The position numbers and the translations under genes were made by a program. Below, piece after piece: positions 57,696 to 64,000 of a stretch of DNA of 64,000 nucleotides (positions within the stretch are counted from its first letter, which is position 1; the number at the start of each line of letters is the position of its first letter). The notes beneath the pieces were generated by a model. The model was not told where the DNA came from. It was given only the letters and a program-made list of their open reading frames with translations, and made no database searches. Source of the stretch: Prolixibacter sp. NT017 (lineage in GTDB: Bacteria; Bacteroidota; Bacteroidia; Bacteroidales; Prolixibacteraceae); NCBI RefSeq assembly GCF_009617875.1, contig NZ_BLAV01000001.1, positions 2,108,001 to 2,172,000 of the forward strand, written 5' to 3'.

Positions 57696-57884
57696 GGCGG
57701 ACTTCGCTGACTGGTGGGGAGTGCTCGCTATGTGGTGGGCGGACTTCGCTGACTGGTGCTGACTATCCGCTGAGCGGTGGGCAGACTCCGCTAACTGGTG
57801 GGGACCGTCCGCTAAGTGGTGGGCAGCCTCCGCTATCTGGTGGGGAGTGTTCGCTATGTGGTGAACGGACTTCGCCAGCTGCAG
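57696..57884. repeat. 21-bp tandem repeat array
   Basis: Eight units of exactly 21 bp plus one degenerate unit, with consensus close to GGSNGNCTYCGCTRASTGGTG. Units 1 and 3 are identical, and units 2 and 8 differ by two bases or fewer. Because 21 is a multiple of three, frames show seven-residue periodicity: RTSLTGG-type and GSLRYLV-type heptads on the plus strand, and HQSAKSA-type heptads on the minus strand. One plus frame has TGA or TAA in most units, the others are open. The last unit runs into a carboxypeptidase-regulatory-like fragment. The core CTTCGCTG resembles CTTTGCWG of the array at 29957-31544. Confidence 0.9.
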
Positions 57885-57998
57885 CCCGGCATGTACCAGG
57901 TGAAAGCCGGTAAGTACGGTTACACCGAGAAACTGCTCGACATTGTAGTGAACTCCGGCGAAACCACCGACCTTACCATTGCTCTCACCAAAAATTAA
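57864..57998 (+). pseudogene. C-terminal fragment of a carboxypeptidase-regulatory-like (Ig-fold) protein
   Basis: The frame reads LRQLQPGMYQVKAGKYGYTE and then ends VNSGETTDLTIALTKN before TAA. This is the usual end of a CarboxypepD_reg/peptidase-associated beta-sandwich (LxPGxYxVxAxKxGY, then GETTxxxIxL). Upstream the same frame enters the 21-bp array and meets stops, so the 5' part of the gene is missing. A strong terminator follows. I read it as a decapitated gene whose body has been replaced by the repeat array. Confidence 0.65.
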
Positions 57999-58032: not shown

Positions 58033-58140
58033 GGTATGATATTATATGCAGGTTTTATTTGGTGAACAATAAGTTTTTTCAAAAAAAATAATAACTTGAA
58101 GTGCCTTAATAACCAACAAAATGAAAACAGACCAGACCAT

Positions 58141-58215
58141 ATGAAACTCAAATCGAGTAAGACAGCAGAAACTTACACCCATGCGTCAAAGCATCAAATG
58201 AAAAAGATAAAGAGT
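58141..58215 (+). pseudogene. C-terminal remnant of a tyrosine recombinase (XerC/D-like integrase)
   Basis: Reads KSSKTAETYTHASKHQMKKI after a Met-Lys-Leu start. This matches the end of Bacteroidota tyrosine integrases (GHKSSKTTEIYTHVSKxxLxxIKSP), including the catalytic Tyr within ETYTH. The upstream catalytic domain with Arg-His-Arg is absent, so it is a remnant. It sits at the left edge of the AT-rich island, as expected for an integrase that brought the island in or was deleted later. Confidence 0.7.
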
Positions 58216-58425
58216 TCTGTAGTTGAGCCTTCGAAGATTCAACGTAATAATGTACACAATACCTCCCGGCATGGATATATAACAACAATATTGATAAATA
58301 CTAGTTACCGCCAAATAAAAGACAGAAAAACGACTGACAATTTGCTACTAAAACAAAAAACAAATAAGGAAAGCCAACGCACATTAACCATTCTAATTGA
58401 TATTGTGTAATTTAGAAAAAAAGAT

Positions 58426-61400
58426 ATGCCCATTAAAATCTATAGAAATAAATTTGAACACGTTCATGAAAATATTTTTTTCAGGCAATTGGCACTTGAA
58501 TTAACAAAGCTTTATAATAACCGAAAAGAACATGCTGTTTTAATAGGAAATCCTGTAATACTTGATGAAGATGGCAACAGGGTTGCTCCCGATGCTTTGT
58601 TTCTTACGGGGAGTTCATTTAATATTATCGATTTTAAAAACTTCGAGGGTGAAATAAAGTTACCAGCATCAAATAATTTTGAGATTGAGAGTTGGAAAAG
58701 GGGAAATATCGTTGTTAAAGGTGGTAATCAAGTTAATCCCTATGTGCAACTTAAAAATCATAAACTAAAGCTTGGTGATTACCTGAATTATCATAAATCT
58801 AAATTCCTTTCAACGGCTTCAAAATTTCACACAAAATTTATTGATTGTATTGTCTGTTTCATAAACCCAGTTCAGTTGAGAGGTGATATTCCAGAACTAG
58901 AACGAAATTGGTTTTTTATTAAAGACAAAAATTCTATTACATCTGCACTTGAAGACATTACCACAACAAGAATAAATTTAAGCGATGGTGATTTAGAGCG
59001 TTTAGCGCACTTATTTAGTACAACCTTATGGAATCCAGAAGAGGCAACTTCGATATCAGATGAATCTGAAGAACAGTCTAGGGAACAGCAATATCATTTA
59101 ACTGATGAGCAGTCAAGAATATTCGCTGAAATTCAAAATTTCTTAAATAACAAAGAAGAAAACGCATTAGTCCTTTCTGGTTCATATTCATGTGGAAAAA
59201 CATTTTTAATTAATCATCTGATAAAAAACATTCCCAAAGACACGGTAAATGGCTGGCAGGTACTAGCTCCGAATAATCGTATAGCACGTAATGTACGCAA
59301 GCAGATTGAATCCGTAGGGAGTCTTTACAGTCATATATTCAAATTTTCTGAACAAATCGAAGTTCCAATTGAAAACGAAGACGAAGACGATTTAGAAGAA
59401 AATTCGAGTGAGGAAGAACCTGAATTAGTTGACACCAAATTAGTTTTTAATATAAGGGAGAATAACGATTCGGAGAATTTTCTATACATCATCGATGAAG
59501 CACATCATATCTCCGATGCAAGTTTTATAAGCCCTACAATTCAATTTGGAACAGGACAATTACTTGCAGACTTACTTACCTATGTTAACACAGAGAAGAC
59601 AAATCGAAAAATTTTATTCATCGGTGATAAATATCGTTTAGGGATTGGCAGTTATGAAGAATCAGCACTTTGTGCTTCCTACTTGCAAAGTGAATATTCT
59701 TTAAATTGCAGAGAAATTGAAATACAACCATACCCACCCACAAATACAAATATTCTTAAACAAGCTTTTAGTGTTCGAAATCAAATAATAAAAGACCAAT
59801 ACAATCAACTTAACCTAGTCGATTCAGATGTTGTTAAAGTCGCTAAATCTGATGGTAATCTTGCTCAAGCAATGCGAAAACATTTCAGTGAAGAATTGTA
59901 TAACACAAAAATTTTGGCTTTTTCTAATGAAAATATTCTGGAATCGAATAACTGGGTTAGATCAAAAGTTCTCAATAGAAATGCTGAACTTGAAAAGGGT
60001 GATATAGTAATTATAAATAACAATGTAATCGTTGCACCAGACAATCCATTTGCTGTACCACAGAAAATTTTCAAGGGTGAATTTGCAGAGGTTTTAACAG
60101 TGTCGAATGATACAGTAAATATTTCACAACCATTCAAAGGCAAAAAAACAATTCAGTTATTTTTCAGGGAGCTTAAATTGAAATTGGTTGAAAGAAATCT
60201 TGAAGTCAATGTTCTGTCATTTGAGAATTACTGGAATTCCACTGCCAATGAAATCAATCGAGAAGAATACATTGCAATTCAAGCCTATATAAATAAAAAA
60301 GTCAGTTCTCAAATTAAGGAAGAAAAAATAACCTCGAAAGAATGGCAGGAATTTATTGCCTCAGAACAATACAAAACTTTACAACACCAGATTGATAAAC
60401 TTCAACAACAACTTGCCAGCGGTGAAAAAGTAAAAACAAAACTTGAAACAAGTAAAAAGAGCTTACGAAAAGTTGAAAATAACTTCTGGCGTAATCGTCG
60501 AATTGAAATACACAGAGATATCGTTTATCACGACAAATATGTCAACGCTGTTAATTTAAGATATGGTTACGCAATTACAGTTCATAGGGCACAATCGTAT
60601 AAATGGAATCACATTTTTTTCAATCTGAATCAAGGCGATGATAGGGGTACCGACAATAAAGGTTATTTCAAGTGGGTTTATTCCGGAATTGGGTGTGCTA
60701 AGAAACGATTATATCTAGTGAATACGCCACAGATTACGCCTTATATCAAAATGGTTTGGAAGGATAATCATGCGAGTGTAGTTAAGACAGACGATAAAAA
60801 AGAGTTTTTCCCATTTACAGACGATACACCAATTGAATTACGTGATAAACCTATTTCCTTTGAATCCGTCTCAGATTTTCTATTTAACTTTTATTGTTGG
60901 TTATCTTCTGAACTTGATGCCTTAAATGTTTCCGTGAAAAAAGTTGACCATAAAAATTACGCAGAACATTATCAACTTACTGGGAAAAACAGCGAGGAAG
61001 CAAAAGTCATTATTTGGTATGACAAACAAAACCGCTTCAAAAAACACAATGTTGCAACATATAGTCCCAAAGAATTTGGAACTCAAATTGATGATTTTTT
61101 GAACAATCTAAAATCCGGTGAAATCATTGCAACAAATTCTGGAACTTCTGAATTTAGCGATTCTATAATAAAAGAACTTTTTGATATTTTAGACGATACA
61201 TTAAAAGAAAAAGGTATATCTGTTGTTTCTGTAACGCCCCAAAATTATGCTGATAGAGTTGTTCTGAAAAAAGAAGAAGCAATTCTTATTTTTGATATAT
61301 TTTTAAATTCGGAAGGCTTTATTACAACTGTTTATCCCATAAAATGTAATAATCCGGAAATCTACGATTTAATAAAAGATATTTTTAACCAGTTTATTGA

Positions 61401-61434
61401 AAAGCATGGAAAACCACTTGCAGCAGGCGAATGA
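58426..61434 (+). CDS. NERD-domain nuclease fused to SF1 helicase
   Basis: 1002-residue protein. Residues about 10-135 resemble a NERD nuclease-related domain: APDALFL (Asp near 56), IDFKNFEGEI (acidic-x-Lys at 69-71), a Trp near 90 and NPYVQLKNHKLKL. An SF1 ATPase follows: Walker A GSYSCGKT (252-259), Walker B DEAH (357-360), motif III-like IGDKYRLG (399-406), YGYAITVHRAQS near 710-722 and GCAKKRLYLVN near 750. The last ~200 residues have no recognised domain. It overlaps the next gene by 29 bp. Composition is AT-rich relative to flanking genes. A role in nucleic-acid surveillance or phage defence is likely but inferred. Confidence 0.8.
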   Translation: MPIKIYRNKFEHVHENIFFRQLALELTKLYNNRKEHAVLIGNPVILDEDGNRVAPDALFLTGSSFNIIDFKNFEGEIKLPASNNFEIESWKRGNIVVKGGNQVNPYVQLKNHKLKLGDYLNYHKSKFLSTASKFHTKFIDCIVCFINPVQLRGDIPELERNWFFIKDKNSITSALEDITTTRINLSDGDLERLAHLFSTTLWNPEEATSISDESEEQSREQQYHLTDEQSRIFAEIQNFLNNKEENALVLSGSYSCGKTFLINHLIKNIPKDTVNGWQVLAPNNRIARNVRKQIESVGSLYSHIFKFSEQIEVPIENEDEDDLEENSSEEEPELVDTKLVFNIRENNDSENFLYIIDEAHHISDASFISPTIQFGTGQLLADLLTYVNTEKTNRKILFIGDKYRLGIGSYEESALCASYLQSEYSLNCREIEIQPYPPTNTNILKQAFSVRNQIIKDQYNQLNLVDSDVVKVAKSDGNLAQAMRKHFSEELYNTKILAFSNENILESNNWVRSKVLNRNAELEKGDIVIINNNVIVAPDNPFAVPQKIFKGEFAEVLTVSNDTVNISQPFKGKKTIQLFFRELKLKLVERNLEVNVLSFENYWNSTANEINREEYIAIQAYINKKVSSQIKEEKITSKEWQEFIASEQYKTLQHQIDKLQQQLASGEKVKTKLETSKKSLRKVENNFWRNRRIEIHRDIVYHDKYVNAVNLRYGYAITVHRAQSYKWNHIFFNLNQGDDRGTDNKGYFKWVYSGIGCAKKRLYLVNTPQITPYIKMVWKDNHASVVKTDDKKEFFPFTDDTPIELRDKPISFESVSDFLFNFYCWLSSELDALNVSVKKVDHKNYAEHYQLTGKNSEEAKVIIWYDKQNRFKKHNVATYSPKEFGTQIDDFLNNLKSGEIIATNSGTSEFSDSIIKELFDILDDTLKEKGISVVSVTPQNYADRVVLKKEEAILIFDIFLNSEGFITTVYPIKCNNPEIYDLIKDIFNQFIEKHGKPLAAGE

Positions 61435-62722
61435 ATTAAGAAAACAAATGAAATTTGAGGAAGCTATTCCTCATTATGACGTGGCATATAATGACCCTGA
61501 CACTGTGTTGAACAAATGGGATATCTGGGGCTATGTGCATTCGTTAAAAAAGACTGGTAATTTGGATAAGTCAATTGAAATATCTGAGAAACATATATCA
61601 GAATACAATGATTTTGAAAATTTAGCAAATAATCTTACATGGGCATATTTTGACAAATACATTCGCACTTTTGAATCATCTGATATAGATAGTATTGAAG
61701 GAGCATTAGACCGAATTTTTGAAATAAATGGTCAGCAGGATATTACTGAACAAAACACAATCCCATGTCCTTTTACAATAGGTGTTTTTAAGGTTTTAAA
61801 GCATTATAAAAGACCAAACTTTAATACATTAAAAATTCGCTATTGGATTGATAAGATAGATCCTGAGAAATTATCCCAACGAGAACAGGTTATTGACCTA
61901 AAAGGCAAAGAAAGAAAATTAGCTTCCGATTTCGAAAACTACTATTCCTTGATGATTACTTTACTATTTAATGAAGGGAAATATTCAGAATGTATGGAGA
62001 AAGCTGAATATGCACTTGAAAATATAAATCAGCTTCATTACGATAATTCAATTTGGTTTAAAAGACGAATTGCCTTGTGTCATGTTGAATTAGGCGATTC
62101 AGAAAAAGCGGAGGAGATTTTAAAATCGTTGGATAAAGGCAAAGGTGAAAAGTGGTTTATTGAATATGAATTATCCAAGATATATTTTGAGCAAGAAAAT
62201 TTTGAAAAATCATTAGATTTTGCGCTTAAAGCAGCAAAGAATTTTGGCGATGATTTAATGAAAGTCAATCTATACACTCATTTGACAAGAATATTATATA
62301 AACAAAATAAGCTTGAACACGCCAAATCTCACGCAGAATTAGTTATTGCAATAAAACAAGCAAATGATTCAAGACTTGATGCGGGACAGCAAAAGCTTGC
62401 TTCATTCTTTAAATTAAACACGGAAGAAACAATTGATTTAAGAAATCAAAAACGTTCAGTTGAAAAAATTTGGAACGAAATCATTTATGGTACCCAAGAG
62501 AAATTAAAAGGAACTATAAACAAAATTCTACCAAACGGCAAATCTGGTTTCATCAAAGCAGAAAATGGTAAGGACTCATACTTTTTTAGGTTTAATTCTG
62601 TAAAAGCGAGAAAAGAGTTAATTCGAGTAGGTAAAAAAGTAAACTTTCTTATAACTGAAAGCTTCGACAAGAAAAAAAATAAAAAGTCATTTGAAGCAGT
62701 TGAAATATATTTAACCCGATGA
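61406..62722 (+). CDS. TPR protein with C-terminal cold-shock-like OB domain
   Basis: 438-residue protein. I use the ATG at 61406, which overlaps the helicase gene by 29 bp; a TTG three codons earlier is less likely. Most of the protein (about 5-350) is helical with TPR-like pairs, for example EEAIPHYDVAYNDPDT, GKYSECMEKAEYALENI and ENFEKSLDFALKAAKNFG. The C-terminus (about 364-438) is a cold-shock-like OB fold: KGTINKILPNGKSGFIKAEN, then DSYFFRFNSV and GKKVNFLI. This would bind single-stranded RNA or DNA. The overlap with the NERD-helicase suggests coupled translation and physical partnership. Confidence 0.8.
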   Translation: MENHLQQANELRKQMKFEEAIPHYDVAYNDPDTVLNKWDIWGYVHSLKKTGNLDKSIEISEKHISEYNDFENLANNLTWAYFDKYIRTFESSDIDSIEGALDRIFEINGQQDITEQNTIPCPFTIGVFKVLKHYKRPNFNTLKIRYWIDKIDPEKLSQREQVIDLKGKERKLASDFENYYSLMITLLFNEGKYSECMEKAEYALENINQLHYDNSIWFKRRIALCHVELGDSEKAEEILKSLDKGKGEKWFIEYELSKIYFEQENFEKSLDFALKAAKNFGDDLMKVNLYTHLTRILYKQNKLEHAKSHAELVIAIKQANDSRLDAGQQKLASFFKLNTEETIDLRNQKRSVEKIWNEIIYGTQEKLKGTINKILPNGKSGFIKAENGKDSYFFRFNSVKARKELIRVGKKVNFLITESFDKKKNKKSFEAVEIYLTR

Positions 62723-62749
62723 TTACCATTAGTTATTCCAATTGAAGTT

Positions 62750-62989
62750 ATGATGAAGTTGCCTAATTCCAGAGAGTTAATCAAAAATATTGCTTACTTT
62801 TTCTTTTTGTTTTTCATCTTTTTCTTTTCGTCGATAATCTGGGGCCCAAATTATCGTGGTTCAATGCGAAGTTTTGAACCGCTAACATGGCGTGAAGCAA
62901 TACATGCTGCCCCGCTAATGGCATTGATTTGCCTGGCCTTGACATTACTTGTATTATGGATAGAAAAAGAATCTAAAAAAAGAGAGTAG
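62750..62989 (+). CDS. Small two-helix membrane protein
   Basis: 79 residues with two transmembrane segments (about 13-30, Phe-rich FFFLFFIFFF; and 54-70) and a basic charged tail (EKESKKRE). It begins 27 bp after the TPR/CSD gene on the same strand and may belong to the same transcript. No family is recognised. The Met at 62753 is an alternative start. Confidence 0.5.
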   Translation: MMKLPNSRELIKNIAYFFFLFFIFFFSSIIWGPNYRGSMRSFEPLTWREAIHAAPLMALICLALTLLVLWIEKESKKRE

Positions 62990-63117
62990 TATTAATTCAG
63001 AGATGCATTATCTGTTTCGCTTTTGCAATTTTGAGCCCCTGGATAGATGCTGCCTGAACATATATAAGTGACCATCAGGCGCCAAATGGAAAAGCGATTA
63101 AGCATATCGACCAGGTT

Positions 63118-63939
63118 ATGAAAAAACTTGAAATAAAAGAGTCAATTACCCGAGAACGAGAAACAATGTATATCGTTGTTTTGACAATTGTTGTTTCCAC
63201 ACAATTAAAAGAGCCAAAGTTATGGTTGCTTATTCCGGTCGCTGTTCTTCTATTCCTACTCTCCCTGGTTGTTAAAAGAGTCATCGCCAGGAAGCCCCGA
63301 TTAATCATCGACGAGATTGGCATACATGACAAACGGAAACAAAAGGTTTACAAATGGGATAGCATTCGGGATGTTGAAATCAATTTTAATTCAAGCAGCT
63401 CTTTCAAATTAGTTGTTAAATGTCAAAGCACAACTGAAAGCATTGACTTAACCAACTTATATACTTCACCAAAAGAAATCAACGAATCAGTTGCATTCTT
63501 TTCAGACAAAAAGATTAAAACCGGAGATGACAGGTTTAAAACAGAAATTGAGCGTATTCTAAAAGACGATGATTCGGTTGTTGAGATAATGATGTTATTC
63601 TCAAAAGTTAAAAGTAAGTTACATTGGATTGGTCTGCCACTCTTCTTTGGAGGAGTAGCACTTTCTGTTTATTTGCAAACCAGGTTGGCTTTTCCTTATG
63701 TCTTTGCAATCGGATTCCTAATGACCGGAATTCTTCTATTCGGATTTATGCAGGTATCTGAAAAACGATTTAAGAAAAAACCTGAAATACGAAATCTAAC
63801 CGACCGGGAGTATAATCTGATTGCTATTAAATATGAATTGAAATTACCCGAAAACAAAACCAGAACAATTATAGGATATGTATTCTTTGGACTTTTAATG
63901 ATTGGAATATTTGTCATCTCCTATATTGCTTCTCTATAA
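63118..63939 (+). CDS. Uncharacterised membrane protein with PH-like domain
   Basis: 273 residues with helices near 17-33 and 36-52, a soluble segment (about 58-160) whose pattern RLIIDEIGIHDKRKQKVYKWDSIRDVEI resembles bacterial PH-like domains (shortened: DEIGIHDKR, KWDSIRDVEI), then two further helices (about 170-210) and a last one near 250-272. It has no catalytic motif. It is in the same orientation as the island genes but separated by a 128-bp gap, and its base composition is closer to the rest of the chromosome. Confidence 0.65.
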   Translation: MKKLEIKESITRERETMYIVVLTIVVSTQLKEPKLWLLIPVAVLLFLLSLVVKRVIARKPRLIIDEIGIHDKRKQKVYKWDSIRDVEINFNSSSSFKLVVKCQSTTESIDLTNLYTSPKEINESVAFFSDKKIKTGDDRFKTEIERILKDDDSVVEIMMLFSKVKSKLHWIGLPLFFGGVALSVYLQTRLAFPYVFAIGFLMTGILLFGFMQVSEKRFKKKPEIRNLTDREYNLIAIKYELKLPENKTRTIIGYVFFGLLMIGIFVISYIASL

Positions 63940-63963
63940 ATTCGTCGCACAAGAAAACAAAGA

Positions 63964-64000
63964 ATGAAACTATTTTTGAAACTTAAACATTGGCAGATTT
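63964..64000 (+). CDS. Partial gene cut by the window end
   Basis: An ATG at 63964 opens a frame reading MKLFLKLKHWQI that runs off the window. The start MKLFLKLKHWQ is common among Bacteroidota membrane proteins, often CPBP or DUF-type. It begins 24 bp after the previous stop codon, so it may share its transcript. Confidence 0.5.
   Translation, partial: MKLFLKLKHWQI

Follow-up and report, generated by a model that had tools for sequence, protein, structure and literature searches.

Does a gene for a nuclease-helicase, overlapped by a gene for a tetratricopeptide-repeat (TPR) protein with a cold-shock domain (CSD), represent an undescribed immune pair, and does its helicase still work as a motor? 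The question is raised by two genes in a 64,000-nt stretch of the Prolixibacter sp. NT017 genome (the window; GCF_009617875.1, contig NZ_BLAV01000001.1, positions 2,108,001 to 2,172,000), which an original prediction made from the letters alone had taken for an unnamed defence or surveillance pair. The predicted gene coordinates and the 29-bp overlap, counted from the ATG of the second gene, were reproduced as follows, where ORF stands for open reading frame and SF1 for superfamily 1.

58426..61434, + strand: effector gene (ORF1), 1002 aa, NERD, SF1 helicase and two TBP-like repeats (PADLOC PDC-M16A)
61406..62722, + strand: partner gene (ORF2), 438 aa, TPR solenoid with DUF7017 and a C-terminal cold-shock/OB fold
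58426..59061, + strand: NERD nuclease region, ORF1 residues 1-212 (Pfam match at residues 28-145)
59080..60825, + strand: SF1 helicase module, ORF1 residues 219-800 (nearest folds Dda, DSH9, RecD2 and Pif1)
60874..61089, + strand: TBP-like repeat 1 (PF22721)
61165..61383, + strand: TBP-like repeat 2 (PF22721)
62504..62713, + strand: CSD/OB fold, ORF2 residues 367-436 (from model and alignment)

ORF1 starts with the ATG at 58426 and ORF2 with the ATG at 61406; an alternative TTG start 9 bases upstream of the latter would give 441 aa. The two proteins have 19 and 39 database relatives (above chance).

Domains and family of the pair

The decisive part of ORF1, overlooked in the original prediction, is its C-terminus, where TBP-TOTE (PF22721) scored 81.2 bits (cut-off 27) and was located at two separate places by the genome scan; the repeats were modelled as two helix-four-strand-helix units, in a whole-ORF1 model with a predicted template-modelling score (pTM) of only 0.35. 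The SF1 helicase matched ResIII (28.8 bits) and UvrD_C_2 (28.9 bits), each above its Pfam cut-off, and NERD reached 22.0 bits (E 2.4e-4), marginally below the cut-off of 22.1, which it passes in relatives (L038, 33.9 bits; L009, 46.9 bits). ORF2 matched TPR_12 (31.2 bits) and DUF7017 (34.2 bits) above the cut-offs and CSD below it (18.4 bits, cut-off 27), gave no match at E 1 with the S1CSD-TOTE models, and matched at 228 bits and near full length the PADLOC model 'TPR repeats containing protein fused to cold shock-like domain'. Its structural model, with a mean local confidence (pLDDT) of 91.4 and a pTM of 0.78, consists of a TPR solenoid and a five-stranded OB fold. Of the RNP-like aromatic residues in this fold, F382 and F394 are each retained in 32 of 33 aligned rows and Y392 in 31. 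All four domains named at the outset (NERD, SF1 helicase, TPR and cold shock) were recovered by Pfam and PADLOC, and the family-level support for NERD and CSD from PADLOC and the relatives is strong despite the sub-cut-off Pfam scores.

TOTE stands for TPR, OB, TBP and Effector (PMC12458937, citing Aravind, Iyer et al. 2022), and all four elements are present here: the TPR protein, its OB fold of the CSD/S1-like kind, the TBP-like repeats, and an effector of predicted activity composed of NERD, with conserved residues, and SF1. With its TBP-TOTE repeats and TPR-OB partner, the pair matches the TOTE family, which has a name already and comprises predicted conflict systems, and is a further copy of it. 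In PADLOC, ORF1 matched PDLC04474 (PDC-M16A) at 399.6 bits over residues 1-663. ORF2, which matches the TPR-CSD model so strongly, matched the best PDC-M16B model only weakly (31.8 bits, over residues 211-326 only), whereas L036-type pairs of helicase-TBP and TPR-DUF7017 genes match both the A and the B models strongly. Both protein families, PDC-M16A and the TPR-CSD protein, had been catalogued in PADLOC already. The original prediction had itself named a match to a known system as a finding that would overturn it, and with TBP-TOTE in Pfam, PDC-M16A in PADLOC and the TOTE definition in PMC12458937 its claim of novelty falls. In the literature searched, PMC12458937 was the sole relevant TOTE paper; no paper contained 'PDC-M16' or 'TOTE conflict systems', and no experimental paper on TOTE was found.

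Two other systems share parts with the pair. TALON, largely confined to Chloroflexota, uses NERD, TPR-CSD and TBP, but is built on a YprA-family helicase core and not on an SF1 helicase fused to NERD and TBP (PMC12458937); no YprA-family helicase was found among the scanned ORFs adjoining the pair, where the helicase is SF1 and Dda/RecD2-like. RnlA of RNase LS likewise joins a TBP-like domain to a nuclease, and its chains gave a weak structural match to the ORF1 model (E 0.008 and 0.012, with no aligned range given), but RnlA is a HEPN RNase with an RnlB antitoxin and has neither NERD nor helicase (PMC3710099). The TBP-like domain of RNase HIII, which also occurs in some RNase LS toxins, binds DNA-RNA hybrids (PMC3710099). 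A sequence search at E 1 returned no solved-structure relative of ORF1; the structure-library matches span mainly residues 219-749, so that NERD and TBP were barely tested there.

The partner proved to be a regular companion of the repeats. The fetched loci include 32 genes in which TBP is combined with NERD, SF1 or both. Directly after 31 of these comes a TPR gene on the same strand, at a distance of -38 to +244 bp; the one exception (L155) lies 425 bp from a contig end. By contrast, a TPR gene comes next in none of 12 related NERD-only or SF1-only genes without detected TBP (one more is at a contig edge), counting as having no neighbour L125, whose TPR gene is non-adjacent, about 2 kb from the helicase. 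Because of this difference, the TPR partner tracks TBP and not the nuclease or the helicase, and the co-location that the original prediction asked of homologues is borne out. Partners were scored with custom profiles; the TPR2 profile was trained on nine of these loci and is therefore circular for those nine, and Pfam or PADLOC independently confirmed the partners in L009, L036, L038, L042, L043 and L045. The effectors are of three types, NERD-SF1-TBP, SF1-TBP and NERD-TBP, the last represented by L045, which lacks a helicase (NERD 28.9 and TBP 38.5 bits, both above cut-off) and is still paired with a TPR-CSD gene.

The sample included all genomes with a TBP match other than the genome itself (12 from the class and 9 from the order). 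PADLOC PDC-M16A matches occur in 87 of 395 class genomes, many of them ordinary chromosomal helicases matching the SF1 part only, and their neighbourhoods were taken from 19 hand-picked genomes and the genome's own paralogue. A contig scan with the helicase alignment yielded six loci, of which L008, L009 and L010 were used and L011-L013 (about 50 matched residues) were dropped. L046 (in G328), with a sub-cut-off Pfam TBP match and no custom-profile match, was left out of the tally, and the TBP match of G447 (28.1 bits), at a contig end (L083), is outside the 32. Among 88 ORFs neighbouring the NERD-type loci, with two weak cross-locus matches, no convincing third conserved gene was found. Two TPR-CSD genes (L120:8822-10138 and L121:5470-6765) have no adjoining effector or TBP gene by the custom profiles. 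Four other loci (L157-L160) encode NERD joined to an extensive helicase part (1116-1215 aa), with neither TBP nor an adjoining TPR gene; both L158 and L160 show matches to PDC-M16A, in its NERD part, and to the Mokosh models MkoA/MkoC.

Motif losses in the SF1 helicase

A canonical SF1 motor carries arginine fingers in motifs IV and VI, and by alignment ORF1 has neither. The relevant elements are listed below.

59179..59202, + strand: Walker A GSYSCGKT, residues 252-259, K258 kept
59494..59505, + strand: Walker B DEAH, residues 357-360
59623..59640, + strand: motif III GDKYRL, residues 400-405, Gln replaced by R404 (alignment)
59728..59745, + strand: motif IV region PYPPTN, without the arginine of non-NERD helicases (R in RQ) (alignment)
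60679..60711, + strand: motif VI YSGIGCAKKRL, residues 752-762, arginine replaced by C757 (alignment)

The motif VI-like element seen earlier is thus present in position but lacks its arginine; motif V (TVHRAQS) is intact. We compared 49 aligned helicases, 27 without and 22 with NERD, near-copies among them (L038 and L144; L008 and P0017, whose helicase parts are identical). Of the helicases without NERD, 26 of 27 have the motif VI arginine, versus 7 of the 22 with NERD; for the motif IV arginine the counts are 26 of 27 and recognisably none of 22, the site being a gap in 20 NERD members, E in P0019, and R in a poorly alignable context in L009. The same 26 non-NERD helicases retain both arginines, and the sole exception, L154, nests in the NERD clade (branch support 100/100; midpoint root). 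In the clade of the window helicase, the motif VI Arg is replaced by Cys and the motif III Gln by Arg in each of the 13 sequences; this motif III Arg occurs in none of the 49 outside the clade, where Gln stands in 35 and Leu in L156. Where a NERD member retains the motif VI Arg (seven sequences), it is the motif V Gln that is gone, replaced by Met in six and by Val in one. Three relatives without the Gln-to-Arg change in motif III (L009, P0019 and L154) likewise lack the motif VI Arg, together with part of Walker B, which is broken in L009 and P0019.

The nuclease region behaves differently. In the 22 rows of alignment A3, E15, D56, K71 and Q108 of NERD are conserved throughout, and position 69 is D in 21 and E in one; a wider set shows the same five residues in each of its 15 sequences (E counted for D69). 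D56, D69 and K71 agree with a PD-(D/E)xK pattern. Of the Walker residues, K258 (Walker A) is invariant in the 22 rows and D357 occurs in 20. As read from these alignments, the predicted nuclease site is kept while ATPase residues erode.

An eroding helicase in the NERD lineage seems to be new here, by comparison with TOTE as the citing paper describes it. A literature search on NERD, arginine fingers and helicases returned passages of defence papers, and these passages mention neither TOTE, TPR nor TBP. In SF1 and SF2 helicases, the second P-loop domain supplies the two arginine fingers, and the helicase-type domain of the defence protein DndH, a predicted DNA binder, also lacks them, although DndH is of the SF2 SWI2/SNF2 type and belongs to an unrelated system (PMC10853773).

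Proposed recognition and cutting, and the probable role of the helicase

The pair probably works as a two-gene TOTE-type conflict system in which TBP and TPR-CSD serve recognition, NERD cuts, and SF1 acts as a clamp or switch. The TPR-CSD protein would form a complex with the effector, and together with its C-terminal TBP-like repeats would recognise an invader-associated form of nucleic acid, most likely an RNA-DNA hybrid, or RNA or a single strand exposed in replication or transcription; the NERD domain would then cut nucleic acid. The SF1 module would bind ATP and nucleic acid and, since both standard arginine fingers are lost in the window clade, would more likely gate the nuclease as a nucleotide-dependent clamp or switch than run as a processive motor. 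This arrangement is favoured by the double occurrence of TBP-TOTE, the pairing in 31 of 32 versus 0 of 12 genes, the retained NERD residues, the arginine losses that follow the clade structure, the helicase-less L045, the hybrid-binding TBP-like domain of RNase HIII (PMC3710099), the restriction of full-length ORF1 to its own genome among 61 relatives, and the different cargo at the site in a congener.

Several observations weigh against it. Seven of the 22 NERD members retain the motif VI arginine; the arginine positions come from sequence alignment; and the ORF1 model, of low pTM as noted, has pLDDT below 50 at residues 436-475 and 733-771, stretches that contain or adjoin motifs IV and VI. 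In the window proteins NERD and CSD score below the Pfam cut-offs, the RnlA match is weak and has no aligned range, and the viral and phage collections hold one distant TPR-CSD relative each, so the phage link is thin. Finally, R404 could be a compensating arginine.

This last point leads to the main rival, the same TOTE system with a working SF1 motor, in which R404 of motif III stands in for the missing fingers and the protein both translocates and degrades, as a helicase-nuclease. The Walker A lysine in 22 of 22 rows, D357 in 20 of 22 and the intact motif V speak for a motor, and the motif III Gln-to-Arg change occurs in exactly the 13 window-clade sequences that lack the motif VI Arg. However, the motif IV Arg is missing as well, in L009, P0019 and L154 the motif VI Arg disappeared along with part of Walker B with no such swap, and a helicase-less relative exists; we regard a rescued motor as doubtful and prefer the clamp or switch.

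Cargo site, CRISPR-linked relatives and meaning

The pair lies in a stretch whose contents differ between congeners.

58147..64000, no strand: variable cargo stretch (comparison with congeners)

DNA common with the congeners stops at 58146 (G395) or 58288 (G396) and starts again, for G395, at 64505, past the window end; the interval between the shared flanks holds other cargo in the congener. The GC content is 0.31-0.34 from 58 kb on versus 0.47-0.50 in the profile windows of 52-58 kb, in agreement with the AT-rich island suggested earlier. The integrase remnant proposed beside the pair (about 58151-58240) found no support: the segment, with its supposed likeness to a tyrosine-recombinase tail, has no Pfam match at E 1, no PHROGs or plasmid match and no second copy in its own genome. 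Its one further copy among 41 relatives, 92% identical, is in G396, adjoining an intact 304-aa gene whose 3' end flanks the pair in the window, and inspection of the 2.7 kb around that copy, made without a domain scan, recognised no integrase. This 3' end (57816-57998), of a gene with a 304-aa form in both G395 and G396, is all that remains of it beside the pair. Exact direct repeats of at least 12 bases between 58100-58430 and 62723-64700 were not found. An IS200-type Y1 transposase gene (PF01797, 133 bits; L006:11009-11470) lies 3' of the cargo stretch, at about 67008 in window coordinates and so beyond its end.

PLSDB held no TPR-CSD match, which argues against plasmid carriage, and the relative in the phage collection is an unannotated record with 26% identity. 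On a viral contig (L089:7749-10381), a TPR-CSD gene (PADLOC, 224.7 bits) is followed by a 476-aa gene matching RnlA_toxin (26.0 bits, cut-off 27) and the PADLOC 'methyl transferase' model (59.9 bits), possibly another effector type.

SF1 and CSD proteins are generally known to serve repair and RNA metabolism widely, and the pair might be a mobile nucleic-acid repair or RNA-turnover unit riding in the cargo site. We consider this unlikely, given the patchy presence of TBP-TOTE, in 13 of 395 class genomes (11 above cut-off) and 10 of 247 order genomes (8 above cut-off), own genome included in both, the exchangeable effectors, and the PADLOC classification among defence candidates. The matches to ORF1 in the other relatives cover the SF1 part only. 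A defence role of the pair is plausible.

The recognition parts recur beside CRISPR adaptation genes. In 11 of the 247 genomes of the order Bacteroidales, 12 places (L084, L085, L122, L123, L124 and L169-L175) encode a PrimPol like that of cas1-cas2 operons, and we take these PrimPols for the CAPP_B class of PMC8211822. Of 11 scored PrimPol C-termini, 7 match the custom TBP profile with E no higher than 0.01, the L174 ORF having been excluded by the ORF filter; the Pfam-scanned match listed, that of L084, reached 19.3 bits for PF22721, short of the cut-off of 27. In 5 of the 12 places the PrimPol gene has a TPR(-OB) gene 3' of it, two (L084, L172) have none, and in the other five a contig ends within about 0.8 kb. 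CAPP_B operons differ from the pair in their PrimPol effector with Cas1-Cas2 and their adaptation role (PMC8211822); 'TBP' and 'cold shock' are missing from the main text of that paper. The likeness suggests a recognition unit shared by TOTE and Cas1-PrimPol-Cas2 modules. That the pair is itself an accessory, its TBP and TPR-OB parts serving adaptation or type III interference with a CRISPR-Cas system elsewhere in the cell, would also fit helicase-TBP pairs adjoining a RAMP gene (L150) or near cas1/cas2-like genes (L153) and the L155 helicase-TBP gene, its downstream side cut off, near a cas1-like gene, but is highly improbable, as the NERD-type loci have no common third gene and neither the ORF list nor the scanned proteins showed a recognisable cas gene next to the pair of the window.

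Going beyond the clamp or switch proposed for the pair, we tentatively suggest that throughout the NERD-TOTE lineage the SF1 helicase may be becoming a non-motor switch, which, by binding ATP but not turning it over normally, would license the nuclease once TBP and TPR-CSD have recognised an RNA-DNA hybrid, and that TBP with TPR-OB may form a general targeting head, used also by PrimPol in CRISPR adaptation operons.

The pair is an additional member of a catalogued family, in which the helicase erosion and the CRISPR link are the points of moderate interest. An apparently unnamed pair is placed in a predicted immune family and provides a compact two-gene test case for TOTE, with K71, K258, R404 and C757 as concrete residues for asking what the helicase does. 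Relatives that keep the arginines, lack them, or lack the helicase altogether are natural experiments on its role, and they raise the question of whether TBP with TPR-OB serves nucleic-acid effectors in general, those of CRISPR adaptation included, as a recognition head.

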